From positions 806,001 through 870,000 of the forward strand of contig NZ_CP058601.1 in assembly GCF_013402815.2 (NCBI RefSeq): 64,000 nucleotides of DNA, written 5' to 3'. Made by a program: the position numbers and the translations under genes. The DNA is from Natrinema halophilum. Its GTDB lineage: Archaea > Halobacteriota > Halobacteria > Halobacteriales > Natrialbaceae. Below, piece after piece: positions 41,456 to 46,871 of the stretch; position 1 is the stretch's first letter; every line of letters starts with the position of its first letter. The notes under the pieces are model-generated. The model was not told where the DNA came from. It made no database searches and saw nothing but the letters and a program-made list of their open reading frames with translations.

Positions 41456-44275
41456 TCATTCCTCGAGTAACCGCTTCAGCCGGTCGAGTTCGGTCAACGC
41501 TTCGACAGGAGTGAGGTGTGCGAGATCGAGCGCGCGGAGTTCGGCTGCCACCTCCGGCGGGACGTCGCCGGCAGCCGGTACTTCCTTCGAGTCGGCCGGC
41601 GCACTGGCGGGTGATTTACCACCGTCCGCAGTCGCCGTTGCAGGTGACTCGCTGTCGGGGTCGAAAGACGGTTCACTGCTCGAAGTAGCCTCGATCGGGT
41701 CTGCGTCATCGCTCGCCTCGAAACTGTCACGGGCGACGGATCCTGTGTCATTCGAGGCGGGCGAAACCAGCTCTCGCGCACGATCCACGACGGAGTCGGG
41801 AACGCCGGCTGCGGTCGCGACTTCGACGCCGTACGAACCCGTCGCCGCCCCCGAGGCAATCTCGTGGTGGAAGACCACCTCGTCGTCGTCCTGGCCGACC
41901 TCGAAGTGAAGCGAAAAGGCCGCTTCGAGATCGTCTGCAAGTTCGGTCAGCGGGTGGTGGTGGGTGGCAAAGAGCGTCGTCGCGCCGACCTCGTCGTGGA
42001 TGTGTTCAGTGATCGCCTGTGCGATCGCCATCCCGTCGGCCGTCGAGGTGCCTCGGCCGACTTCGTCGAGCAAGACCAGCGAGTTCTCGTCGGCCTCCCG
42101 AAGGATAGTTGCGAGTTCGTCCATCTCGACCATAAACGTCGAGCGCCCGCCCGCGATATCGTCGCTGGCGCCGACGCGCGTAAAGATTCGGTCGACGGGT
42201 GAAAGCCGCGCCGCGCTGGCAGGCACGAAGCTTCCCACCTGTGCCAGCAGTACGATCTGAGCGACCTGTCGCATGTACGTCGATTTCCCCGACATGTTTG
42301 GGCCCGTAATGACGGCCAGGCGACGATCCGTCCCGAAGCGGGCGCCGTTGGGAACGAACGACTCCTGTGTCCGCTCTACGACTGGGTGGCGACCACCCTC
42401 GATCTCGAGAACCTGACTTCCATCTCGCTCGAGGATTTCTGGGCGGCAGTAATCGTACGTGGCTGCGACCGTCGAAAGCGAAACGAGCGCGTCGAGCGAC
42501 GCGAGCGCCTCGGCAAGCGACTGGATGCGTTCGACCTCGTTTGCGACCTCACGGCGGACGTCGCAGAACAGTTCGTATTCACGCCTGTCGGCGCGCTCTT
42601 GGGCTCCGACGATCTGGTCTTCGCGTTCTTTGAGTTCCGGCGTGACGAATCGTTCCGAGTTTTTGAGTGTCTGTCGACGCTGGTAGTTTTCGGGTACCAA
42701 CTCGAGGTTCGGATTCGTTACTTCGATGTAGTAGCCGTGAACCGAATTGTGACCGACCTTCAGGGAATCGATTCCGGTCCGATCTCGTTCGCGCTCCTCC
42801 AGGTCGTCGATCCACTGCTTGCCGTCCCGCGCTGTCCCGCGCAGGTCGTCCAGGTCGTCGTCGTACCCTTCGGCGATAATCCCGCCGTCGGTGATCTCGA
42901 TCGGCGGGTCCGAGACGATCCCGTTGTCGATCAATTCGCGGACGTCGCTCAACGGATCGAGATTCTCGTAGAGTCGCCGCAGTCGATCGCAATCCGCGTC
43001 GGCGAGTTCCTCGCGAACGTCGGGCACGACGGCGAGCGTGTCACGAAGCGAGCGCAGGTCTCGCGCGTTCGCCCGTTCTCGGGAGATGCGCCCGATAAGC
43101 CGCTCGAGATCGTAGACCTCTCGTAGGCGATCGTGAAGCCGTTCGCGGGTCTGGACCGCGCTCGTGAATTCCTCGACGGCGTCGAGTCGCGACTCGATTC
43201 GGTCGGGTTCGAGCAGCGGCCGCCGGAGCCAATCGCGGAGTTTTCGACCGCCGAGCGCGCTGGCGGTTTCGTCGAGGACGCCGACCAACGTCGCATCATC
43301 CCGTCCGTGGACGGCACGGGATTCGAATAGCTCGAGGCTCCGTAGCGCAACCGCGTCGAGCAACAGGTATTCTCGCGGATCGTATCGAGTGAGGTGGGTG
43401 AGATAGTCGAGGCGTGCGTCATCGTCCGGGTCAGATCGATTGACATCCCCGCTTTCGTCGTCGCGTCGCTCATCGCCGCGTTCTCCCTCGTGTTCCCCAC
43501 CGCGGACGTACTCTGCGTACGAGAGGAGCGCACCGCAGGCTCGAATTTCGGCGTCGCTTGCGAGCAGCGTTTCGGGATTTCCGAAGTACGCCGAGAGTTT
43601 CTCGCTGGCCAGATCTCGATCGAAAACGCTCTCGTCGTACGGCGAGACCATGCAATCGTCCGGGAACAGCTCAGCGGTTGCGTCGGGACCGACAACAGCC
43701 TCCGCGGGTTCGAACCGGCTCACTTCGTCGGCGACCGCCTCCGGCGATGATGAACTCGTCGCGAGAAAGTCGCCCGTCGAAACATCGAGGAGCGCGAGCG
43801 CGAATTCGTCGTTCGCGTCGTTGGTACCCGATTCGCTCCCGCGGGCGACTGCTGCAACGAAATTGTTGTCGTCGCTCGTCAACAGTTCGTCCTCGGTGAG
43901 CGTCCCGGGTGTGATAACGCGCGTGACGGCGCGCTCGACGACGCCCGGGGACTCCCCCGGCTCCTCGACCTGATCCGCGACAGCGACCCGATAGCCCGCT
44001 TCGAGCAGTTCTTCGATGTACGACTCGGCATTGTCGATCGGGATGCCGGACATCGGGTATTCGCCGGTGCTATCCTCACGGCTGGTCAGTGCGATCTCGA
44101 GCAGGCGTGCAGTTCGTTCGGCTGCGCCACAGAACGTCTCGTAGAAATCACCGACCTGAAAGAGAACGATCGCGTCGTCGTAACGCACACAAAGGTCGTG
44201 ATACTGGCGCATCATCGGCGTCAACTCGTCGCGTTTCTCGGCCATCGCGTCGGGCGGGCCAAGCGCCGGATCCAT
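41456..44275 (-). CDS. mutS: DNA mismatch recognition ATPase MutS
   Basis: 939 aa. The mismatch-reading Phe-x-Glu motif is in [19 protein letters not shown] near residue 45. Connector, lever and clamp domains follow, then the ABC ATPase: Walker [18 protein letters not shown], signature region [15 protein letters not shown], Walker [17 protein letters not shown] and the His switch [13 protein letters not shown]. An acidic, serine-rich stretch (about residues 850-905) precedes the C-terminal dimerisation helices. Two acidic insertions near residues 260-285 are haloarchaeal. No mutL gene is next to it in this window; downstream lies only the broken GNAT gene. Confidence 0.96.
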
Positions 44276-44354: not shown

Positions 44355-44476
44355 ATTCAGCGTGGACTCCCGTTCTGGCCTCAGTTGCGGCAGGATAACC
44401 CACCTGTTCGGTCACCTGATTGTCACGAAACGGACAAAACGTATTACGATCCACGACACAGTGGGGAACGATCGGT

Positions 44477-45997
44477 ATGGATCGGGATTCGTCCACCGTG
44501 GCACGCTTGCTCGCCGTTCTCGCGGCTGCGATGCTCCTCGGCGGCGGGCTCACGGGCGTCGCAGCGGGTGCCGGACCGGGGCTGTCGAGTCCATCCACTC
44601 ACTCACTCGGCGATGGGCTCCTCGGTACGGGCGAGACGACGAAATCGATCTCGTTTGGCCTCGAAGATACGACATCGACACTGGAAAATACCACGGAGAC
44701 CACGTCCGACGGACGCGAGAATACCACGGAGACCACGACCGACGGGCTCGAGAACGCCACTGATACTACGACTGACGGGCTCGAGAACGCCACTGATACT
44801 ACGACTGACGGGCTCGAGAACGCCACTGATACTACGACTGACGGGCTCGAGAACGCCACTGATACTACGACTGACGGGCTCGAGAACGCCACTGATACTA
44901 CGACTGACGGGCTCGAGAACGCCACTGATACTACGACTGACGGGCTCGAGAATACCACTGATACTACGACCGACGGGCTCGAAGACACGACCAGAAATTT
45001 ATCGAATCCTGACGGATCGGTCGATACAGCGATCAACGAGACGTCTGGAACCGTCGACGGGACCGTCGATACGACGACGGGAGCCGTCAATTCGACGCTC
45101 GACGAGACTGGTTCTACGGTCGAGTCCGTCGGCGGTAGAATGGTCACCGTCTCCGCCGAAGTCGATGCCGGAGTCGATGCCGGAGTCGGATGGACAACCT
45201 CGGGGGCCGACCGCGACGACACGCGGCAAATCGGAACGCCGAGTGCAGACAGGAACGGCGACGAATCCGCTCCGACCGGGGTTCCCGGCGCCACTGAAAC
45301 GGCGACGGACGCGGTGTTGGTCGGGCTGCTTGGGGCAATTAGCGTTTCCGGGGCTGCGGTGGGCGGCACCAGCGCGTCCGGTGCAGCAAGCGGTGCAGGC
45401 GGTGTAACCGCCAGTTGGCTGACCCAGAACCGAGGTATCCGACATCTGCAAGGGGCTGGGTCCGCAATTCCCTGGAAGATCCTCCCGCTGTTCAGATACA
45501 GCCAGTACGACGACTCGGACCCGCTCGAACACGATGGCCGCCGGAAAATTTACGAGACGATCGAAACCGACCCCGGGTGTTATCTCTCTCAGGTGAGCGA
45601 CCGAGTCGACATTCCGCTTTCGACAGTTCGGTACCACGTTCGCATTCTCGAAGACGAATCGCTCGTAACCGGTGTCAAGGTCAACGGGAAGCGGCGCTAC
45701 TTCCTCGACGCGGACGGCGCCGAACTCCGAGCTGCCCTCGCCGAACCCGCAAAGCGCGACGTTCTCGAGGCACTGGCGGCGCTCGGTCGCGCACACAACG
45801 GCCAACTCGCCGACGAACTCGACCGCGACCCGAGTACGATCTCGCACCACCTCTCGGCGCTCGAGGACGACGGACTGGTCGCCCGCGAAAAAGACGGGCG
45901 ATCGATCGCCAACGAACTCCCGGCACAGGTCGAGGCGGCGCTGGTCGACCAGACGGCGGCGGCTGTCGACTCGCGAACTGCGCCGGCAGACGACTGA
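44477..45997 (+). CDS. Predicted membrane-anchored tandem winged-helix regulator with N-glycosylation-sequon repeats
   Basis: 506 aa, start ATG at 44477 (MDRDSSTV); the open frame to 44420 is not convincing. A signal-like hydrophobic segment spans residues 8-31. Residues 66-176 are 11-residue repeats of the type DGLENATDTTT, six identical copies at 89-154 and diverged copies on both sides, each with an NAT or NTT sequon. A Thr/Ser-rich region follows. A second hydrophobic segment lies at about 278-300 (AVLVGLLGAISVSGAAVGG). The C-terminus has two winged helices: about 355-412 (YLSQVSDRVDIPLSTVRYHV) and 423-485 (GQLADELDRDPSTISHHLSA). Best model: glycosylated external stalk, one span, cytosolic DNA-binding module. 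Ligand and targets unknown. Confidence 0.85.
   Translation: MDRDSSTVARLLAVLAAAMLLGGGLTGVAAGAGPGLSSPSTHSLGDGLLGTGETTKSISFGLEDTTSTLENTTETTSDGRENTTETTTDGLENATDTTTDGLENATDTTTDGLENATDTTTDGLENATDTTTDGLENATDTTTDGLENATDTTTDGLENTTDTTTDGLEDTTRNLSNPDGSVDTAINETSGTVDGTVDTTTGAVNSTLDETGSTVESVGGRMVTVSAEVDAGVDAGVGWTTSGADRDDTRQIGTPSADRNGDESAPTGVPGATETATDAVLVGLLGAISVSGAAVGGTSASGAASGAGGVTASWLTQNRGIRHLQGAGSAIPWKILPLFRYSQYDDSDPLEHDGRRKIYETIETDPGCYLSQVSDRVDIPLSTVRYHVRILEDESLVTGVKVNGKRRYFLDADGAELRAALAEPAKRDVLEALAALGRAHNGQLADELDRDPSTISHHLSALEDDGLVAREKDGRSIANELPAQVEAALVDQTAAAVDSRTAPADD
44741..44938 (+). repeat. Six identical 33-bp tandem repeats in a coding region
   Basis: Six perfect in-frame copies of a 33-bp unit beginning gacgggctcgagaacgcc, each encoding DGLENATDTTT. 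Diverged copies extend the array by two units on the left and two on the right. Identity at the nucleotide level points to recent expansion by slippage or unequal recombination, so copy number is probably variable between strains. Confidence 0.9.
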
Positions 45998-46026: not shown

Positions 46027-46365
46027 TCACGGGTCTCTGTCCGCGATATCGAAGTACAACTCCGCGTGGTTCGAGCAACCGGGGTTGAACGCGGCGCCGC
46101 AGGCCGGACAGCGGTAGTCGGACTCGAGGTACTCGGGAACGGTGAGTTCCCCGTCACAAACGCCGCACAGAACCGACGGCTCGTCGAACCGATCCCTCGG
46201 CCAGGGGACGGCTTCGTGCCCCGAGACGGCCTCGTGGCAGCGGAAACAGGGATAGTACCGCTCGCAGCAGGCGAACTTGAACGCGACGACGTCGCTGTCG
46301 GTGCGGTAATGAGAACATCGCGTCTCGGAATCGACCTCGACGCCATGGACTGTGTGATCCGTCAT
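46027..46365 (-). CDS. CHY-type zinc finger protein
   Basis: 112 aa starting MTDHTVHGVEVD (ATG at 46365; the frame continues to 46434 with no conserved content). It has the CHY zinc-finger pattern: TRCSHYRTDSDVVAFKF, then CCERYYPCFRCHEA, VLCGVCDGELT, YRCPACGAAFNPGCSNH. These cysteines and histidines bind several zinc ions. In eukaryotes CHY domains occur in ubiquitin ligases; small archaeal versions have unknown function. It converges with the wHTH regulator gene. Confidence 0.9.
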   Translation of the reverse strand: MTDHTVHGVEVDSETRCSHYRTDSDVVAFKFACCERYYPCFRCHEAVSGHEAVPWPRDRFDEPSVLCGVCDGELTVPEYLESDYRCPACGAAFNPGCSNHAELYFDIADRDP

Positions 46366-46871
46366 GGAAGCGTGCGCCAGCCGATCCGTCGGGCGCTGGA
46401 ACCTTCGGCGTTGTGACTGTTCGAGCTGTTCCACGATGAAACCCGACCCTATCGATAGGAGGGTCGGCTATCGACGATATCTTCTGACTCGACTGATATC
46501 TCGAGTGACACGTAGTCACCGAGCGGCCGACCGTGTGTTTCCGACGGAGTTCCCAACCGGTCTCGGCCCGGTTTTGTCGAAAAAGTGACGACGAAAGGTG
46601 GTTGTTGTGAGGCGGACAACCCTCGAGATGAAACCGGTGGTGATCGAAACCGTTCCGGTGGCACCCGGTCAAATGAATCAAGACTGATCGGCTTCTATCT
46701 GACACGTATTCGCTACTCGGTCCGCGATTGGACGACCGGTCTCCAGGGAGGCGGAGACCCGACAGCGAATGATCCAACAGTCAACGACGGTGGCGAGACG
46801 TCGGCCCAAGCGCCGCCACCGATGCAGACGGCTCTCGCCCTCCCTCGTCGACACCAGCATCGCCGACTCCC
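46366..46871. other. Intergenic region between CHY finger gene and gvpO
   Basis: 506 bases with no supportable gene. Frames open here are basic and not conserved-looking. The region should hold the CHY gene promoter and the terminator of the leftward gvp operon. Confidence 0.4.

Follow-up and report, generated by a model that had tools for sequence, protein, structure and literature searches.

The window, a stretch of 64,000 nucleotides from the Natrinema halophilum genome, contains a putative regulator gene that lies between mutS and a CHY zinc-finger gene and beside a gas-vesicle (gvp) cluster (Table 1). The encoded chain of 506 residues carries, in order, an export signal, NxT-bearing repeats, and a weak Gly/Ala-rich hydrophobic segment, with a basic juxtamembrane stretch leading to a pair of ArsR-type winged helices, which bears out the order of parts first read from the letters alone: a signal segment, 11-residue repeats each with an NxT sequon, a second hydrophobic segment, and two winged helices. 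An alternative in-frame TTG is present upstream of the ATG, at position 44420. It is an unlikely start, because the DNA that separates this TTG from the ATG contains a block of promoter sequence that is conserved across 14 orthologues; we thus favor 44477 and reject a misannotated start. The tandem winged helices and the two hydrophobic segments are encoded in a single open reading frame, and this arrangement is kept in homologues. The concern that the N-terminal part might be a separate gene fused by error was addressed by a homologue search and can be set aside, as the homologues share the order of parts.

Table 1. Features of the regulator gene and its direct neighbors, with positions counted from the first nucleotide of the window.
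Feature	Position	Strand	Basis
mutS, divergent neighbor	41456..44275	-	adjoins the gene in 13/13 congeneric orthologues
Conserved promoter block, possible operator	44416..44450	+	alignment of 14 orthologue upstream regions
Regulator ORF, 506 aa + stop	44477..45997	+	ATG start; 13/28 congeneric genomes with orthologue, aligned
Signal-peptide-like segment, aa 1-32, h-region ~aa 10-30, possible AGA|G cleavage	44477..44572	+	hydrophobic peak; flank charges
Predicted exterior stalk, acidic, Thr-rich	44675..45130	+	AlphaFold helices aa 67-174 and 182-218, low confidence
33-bp tandem repeat, 8.3 copies, unit TTDGLENATDT with NxT sequon	44708..44982	+	TRF
Second hydrophobic segment AVLVGLLGAISVSGAAVGG, aa 279-297, marginal Gly/Ala-rich TM helix	45311..45367	+	hydropathy; strongly conserved in orthologues
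Basic juxtamembrane segment and family signature WKILPLFRYSQYDDSDPLEH, aa 314-352	45416..45532	+	family alignments; flank charges
First winged helix (HTH_20 aa 351-399 / HTH_HVO_0163_N), recognition-helix region PLSTVRYHVRIL	45527..45706	+	Pfam, AlphaFold
Second winged helix (HTH_24 / HTH_5, ArsR type), recognition-helix region DPSTISHHLSAL	45746..45904	+	Pfam, AlphaFold, Foldseek
CHY zinc-finger gene, convergent neighbor	46027..46434	-	kept in 13/13 congeneric orthologues

At the C-terminus, Pfam assigns HTH_HVO_0163_N (45 bits against a cut-off of 31), HTH_20, which matches two stretches, and HTH_24/HTH_5 at aa 424-468, while the NCBIfam model of the ArsR/SmtB subfamily (NF033788) scores 73 bits against a cut-off of 55. 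Tandem-HTH Pfam families are matched by all of the aligned members (21/21) at E-values up to 0.01, and both winged helices are predicted with pLDDT values of ~94-98 in an AlphaFold model based on 52 sequences. Foldseek returns SmtB and CzrA, and a PDB sequence search likewise returns ArsR/SmtB proteins, with each of these structures spanning only about one winged helix; a solved structure that matches the tandem pair well was found by neither search. The ArsR/SmtB metalloregulators thus share the wHTH fold and provide the best structural and sequence matches, but the winged helices of the regulator differ in being arranged in tandem and, by prediction, linked to the membrane. Furthermore, no metal-site CxC or α5 His/Asp pattern is seen by eye in the wHTH alignment, making a metal sensor of the SmtB kind unlikely.

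Clear orthologues are found in 13 of the 28 other genomes of the genus. In all 13, the signal-like segment is followed by an exterior part of low complexity, a conserved hydrophobic segment rich in Gly and Ala (consensus AVLVGLLGAITASGAAAGG), a run of basic residues, the signature FRYSxYDDSDPLEH, and the two winged helices. The exterior part is strongly variable among them, with G003 (L010) having a short version that contains a single sequon. A second subfamily within the genus (L020, L021, L035, and L052-L055) has an equal layout with DPD or GKPDKP repeat units; where both flanks of a locus were read, several neighboring genes are shared, including, at two of the loci, one for a 575-aa protein that begins with MTDPETLSVTIVDGYVDEPAHFGVPPYIS. 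Scanning named genomes yielded 60 loci, all of them haloarchaeal and drawn from many genera, while 144 of the 392 genomes sampled in the order contain relatives of the winged-helix pair (E-values up to 1e-20). Among the stalked members of this order-wide set that were read, the part order is identical, such that the layout of the 13 congeneric orthologues extends to many further haloarchaea.

Relatives from other families of the phylum have a signal-like helix that a short loop connects to a second helix, ahead of the tandem winged helices. We infer from the families expected there that these non-halobacterial relatives include methanogens, which is supported by Pfam control matches in Methanosarcina and Methanocaldococcus. 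As the methanogen relatives share two membrane helices followed by tandem winged helices, the layout is less unusual than originally claimed: two helices plus a winged-helix pair are widespread among the sampled genomes of the order and in methanogens, and what stands of the claim of a non-standard archaeal layout is the long stalk, a haloarchaeal addition. Predicted archaeal regulators with tandem HTHs (HTH_20 and HTH_HVO_0163_N), which we take to be COG3398, are alike in having two consecutive winged helices, to which the methanogen members add two helices and a short loop; here, a long, sequon-rich, putatively hendecad stalk replaces that loop. Unlike the regulator, HVO_0163-like members (e.g., L158) are ~174 aa in length and have no N-terminal hydrophobic segment. 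In the open-access literature searched, a scope outside which most subscription journals fall, no studied member of the family is named.

The charges around both hydrophobic segments fit the positive-inside rule. Over 60 members, the signal helix is preceded by 150 K/R versus 51 D/E and followed by 9 versus 99, while the second segment is preceded by 3.2 K/R and 20.2 D/E per 100 aa and followed by 8.7 and 3.9, respectively. Past the second segment, K/R outnumber D/E in 54/60 members. Together with a sequon excess that is restricted to the stalk (described below), this charge pattern supports the topology put forward in the original prediction, in which the stalk would be outside and the winged-helix pair in the cytosol. 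The second helix of this predicted topology is marginal: it is weakly hydrophobic (KD19 of 1.91 and a biological-scale sum of +2.3), and it appears as a low-confidence coil in the 52-sequence AlphaFold model. Relatives outside Halobacteria have clearer second helices, which also agrees with this topology.

With a second segment this marginal, one can conceive of a chain that does not span the membrane again and is exported whole, such that the winged-helix pair would bind extracellular DNA. Many haloarchaea do encode relatives of ~245-340 aa (including L249, L250, L252, L253, L254, and L264) with a signal-like segment, a linker of 50-90 aa, and intact tandem winged helices, in which no clear second hydrophobic segment is seen, and in six related short copies, the first winged helix begins with an NxT sequon. 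By the positive-inside rule, the winged helices of these short forms would be outside; these forms may export their DNA-binding domains or insert the N-terminal helix in reverse, and they call for caution with topology claims on the family. However, the wHTH sequons of 19 short forms show no enrichment (9 versus 11.2 expected), and in the long forms, the strongly basic flank past the second segment, the lack of a sequon excess in the wHTH parts, and the clearer second helices of the methanogen relatives make export of the whole chain very improbable.

Membrane-bound one-component regulators are already known in archaea and bacteria. Bacterial transmembrane activators of the CadC/ToxR type have an N-terminal DNA-binding domain with an OmpR-type winged helix and a globular exterior sensor. 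The regulator would work in a similar manner, with a single chain taking input from outside and binding DNA as its output, but in the opposite orientation. ArnR and ArnR1 of Sulfolobus, membrane-bound activators of the archaellum, are likewise archaeal one-component, membrane-fixed HTH proteins (PMC13286277); their HTH is N-terminal and reportedly phosphorylated by kinases, whereas the regulator has C-terminal tandem HTHs and a predicted exterior stalk.

The stalk of the regulator includes the 33-bp repeat (TRF score of 473, 95% matches), each 11-residue unit of which holds one NxT sequon. It contains 12 N-x-S/T sequons compared to 4.8 expected from shuffles, which do not represent 12 independent events as the repeat copies were recently duplicated. 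The excess is also present in the stalks of divergent relatives. Stalk sequences from 59 members contain 577 Asn residues, 403 of which lie inside N-x-S/T, compared to 160 expected from shuffled stalks, a count that overstates the number of independent events because of common ancestry and repeats among the sequences. In the offset controls on the same stalks, Asn with Ser/Thr at +1 and +3 number 152 and 121, respectively. The excess is confined to the stalks: the wHTH parts of 67 members contain 13 sequons versus 22.5 expected, and the other proteins of the window contain 21 versus 23. The safer statement is thus the contrast between stalk and winged helices within the same chains. These counts support selection for sequons in the stalk, which is probably N-glycosylated. 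The density is uneven, with the near-stalkless L010 and several genera having only one or 0-1 sequons, respectively, and the repeat units of the DPD/GKPD subfamily themselves having none.

The stalks also display a regular spacing of hydrophobic residues. Autocorrelation over the orthologue stalks gives z-scores of 7.8, 8.0, 17.0, 4.0, 8.6, and 13.1 at lags 4, 7, 11, 15, 18, and 22, with depletion at lags 2, 3, and 5, and the stalks of other genera show peaks at lags 4, 7, 11, and 18. When only residue pairs whose surrounding DNA is <50% identical are considered, z-scores of 4.7, 4.3, 3.1, and 3.4 are retained in the orthologues at lags 4, 7, 11, and 18; in the other genera, those at lags 4, 7, and 11 are 4.8, 3.2, and 3.2, while lag 18 drops to 1.4. 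Because the peaks survive this control, recent duplication of the DNA is not the sole source of the spacing, which suggests a helical hendecad rather than a random tether. The pattern is absent from the DPD/GKPD subfamily. An AlphaFold monomer lends weak support to such a helix: it contains long stalk helices at the residues given in Table 1, mostly with pLDDT values of ~45-65 and from a method that tends to render low-complexity repeats as helices. Weak, below-cut-off matches of the stalk to Pfam Apolipoprotein and NCBIfam ZorA were taken as 11-mer/coiled-coil resemblance only. A known archaeal surface stalk with 11-residue repeats is that of tetrabrachion in the S-layer of Staphylothermus marinus, which forms a right-handed coiled coil (PMC5744192). 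The hydrophobic spacing in the regulator would fit a hendecad helix as found there, but tetrabrachion is a structural S-layer protein with no DNA-binding part, and the stalk helix of the regulator is a prediction.

Stalk units vary among members (TDE, SDS, DPD, GKPDKP, and PTPT), as does stalk length, and with one orthologue (L010) nearly stalkless, the repeats might be read as a neutral, fast-changing, disordered spacer of no signaling value in a plain tethered regulator that senses through its membrane or cytosolic parts. Such a spacer would account for neither the strong sequon excess nor the 4/7/11 hydrophobic spacing, which is conserved also in stretches whose underlying DNA has ceased to be repetitive, and we consider this explanation unlikely. 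One relative of 1549 aa (L095:1891-6537) has an exterior part of 1264 residues, in which the long repeats are of a different kind, and Pfam detects domains only in its winged helices.

From these features, we propose, with roughly even confidence for and against, that the protein is a membrane-tethered one-component transcription regulator whose exterior stalk takes its input from the state of the envelope. The N-terminal signal would carry the chain out of the cell, where an acidic, Thr-rich, and sequon-dense stalk of 150-240 residues would form what is probably an N-glycosylated, helical hendecad rod. The weak Gly/Ala-rich helix would then return the chain inward, with the basic juxtamembrane stretch leading into the two winged helices in the cytosol. 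Pfam detects no sensor domain in the exterior part of the protein or of eight scanned relatives, and for this reason, the stalk itself would most likely report the envelope state, hypothetically S-layer packing, tension, salinity, or glycan status. We further hypothesize that altered assembly or cleavage of the stalk would change winged-helix dimerization at the membrane, or lead to release, and that changes in transcription would follow, perhaps including that of the regulator's own promoter.

The main rival to signaling through the membrane helix is proteolytic release, with the stalk as a cleavage-controlled tether: upon shedding or envelope stress, an intramembrane protease would cut the helix and free a tandem winged-helix fragment to reach DNA. 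The second helix is unusually rich in the helix-breaking residues Gly, Ala, and Ser and only marginally hydrophobic, which would suit such a cut, and haloarchaeal rhomboid proteases exist, the natural substrates of which are unidentified and the loss of which alters S-layer N-glycosylation (PMC11985538). Marginal helices are nonetheless common and need not be cut, and neither a cleavage site nor a protease partner was identified for the regulator, leaving release improbable in our estimation.

If the topology and glycosylation of the proposed envelope-sensing regulator are correct, the path from surface to promoter would be very short, running through one chain with no kinase, and a glycosylated rod would take the place of a ligand-binding domain on the exterior. 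The yeast cell-wall sensors Wsc1 and Mid2 combine a signal peptide, a glycosylated repetitive stalk, a single helix, and a cytosolic output. They serve as an analogy for the exterior part only, being eukaryotic and O-mannosylated, with output to a GTPase pathway rather than the direct DNA binding envisaged here. A broader proposal, that such proteins are kinase-free envelope sensors throughout the haloarchaea, in which an N-glycosylated hendecad stalk would read S-layer or glycan state and act through a weak helix on a DNA-binding pair (perhaps outside in the short relatives), is one we hold as doubtful. The family is common (144/392 genomes), which opens these ideas to testing in a member-bearing haloarchaeon amenable to genetics.

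Candidate targets were sought from the promoter block CTGATTGTCACGAAACGGACAAAACGTATTACG (44416-44448), which is conserved across orthologues and consists of a GTGACnGTCAC-like inverted repeat (here CTGATTGTCAC), CGAAACGG, and a TATA-like CGTATTACG ~30 nt upstream of the regulator ATG. The inverted-repeat likeness in the first part of the block is seen in several orthologues, and autoregulation through this block is possible. When the motif GTGACTGTCACGAAACG was searched across the genus, with matches counted at ≤2 mismatches, it was found in most orthologue promoters and elsewhere as scattered single matches. It did not recur at any other shared gene in the genus, and the search thus gave no target beyond the possible self-site. 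One match, in a glycosyltransferase promoter of the same genome, is absent at the congeners' counterparts and is therefore treated as chance.

Finally, we considered the gas-vesicle genes. The neighboring cluster is real, with matches to GvpO, Gas_vesicle, and GvpL/F, and, as had been noted, it contains no GvpD/E family among the ten products scanned with Pfam. The cluster follows the regulator not only in the window but also in 11/13 congeneric orthologue loci, an adjacency that would suit a local controller of gvp replacing GvpD/E. However, gvpDE is missing from most haloarchaeal gvp clusters anyway (PMC4390858), and each partner occurs without the other: the regulator is present and gvp absent in G012 and G019, whereas G028, G014, and G001 have mutS, CHY, and gvp in equal order with the regulator missing. 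Over 29 genomes, gvpF is found in 26 and the regulator in 14 (both in 12, regulator only in 2, gvp only in 14, and neither in 1), with no association between the two. Presence/absence and synteny thus argue against the suggested gas-vesicle link; we reject the regulator as one of the GvpD/GvpE type and find local control of the adjoining cluster scarcely credible. In the three loci where the regulator is missing (L242, L243, and L245), it appears to have been cleanly lost or gained between mutS and CHY, with the flanks and gvp intact.
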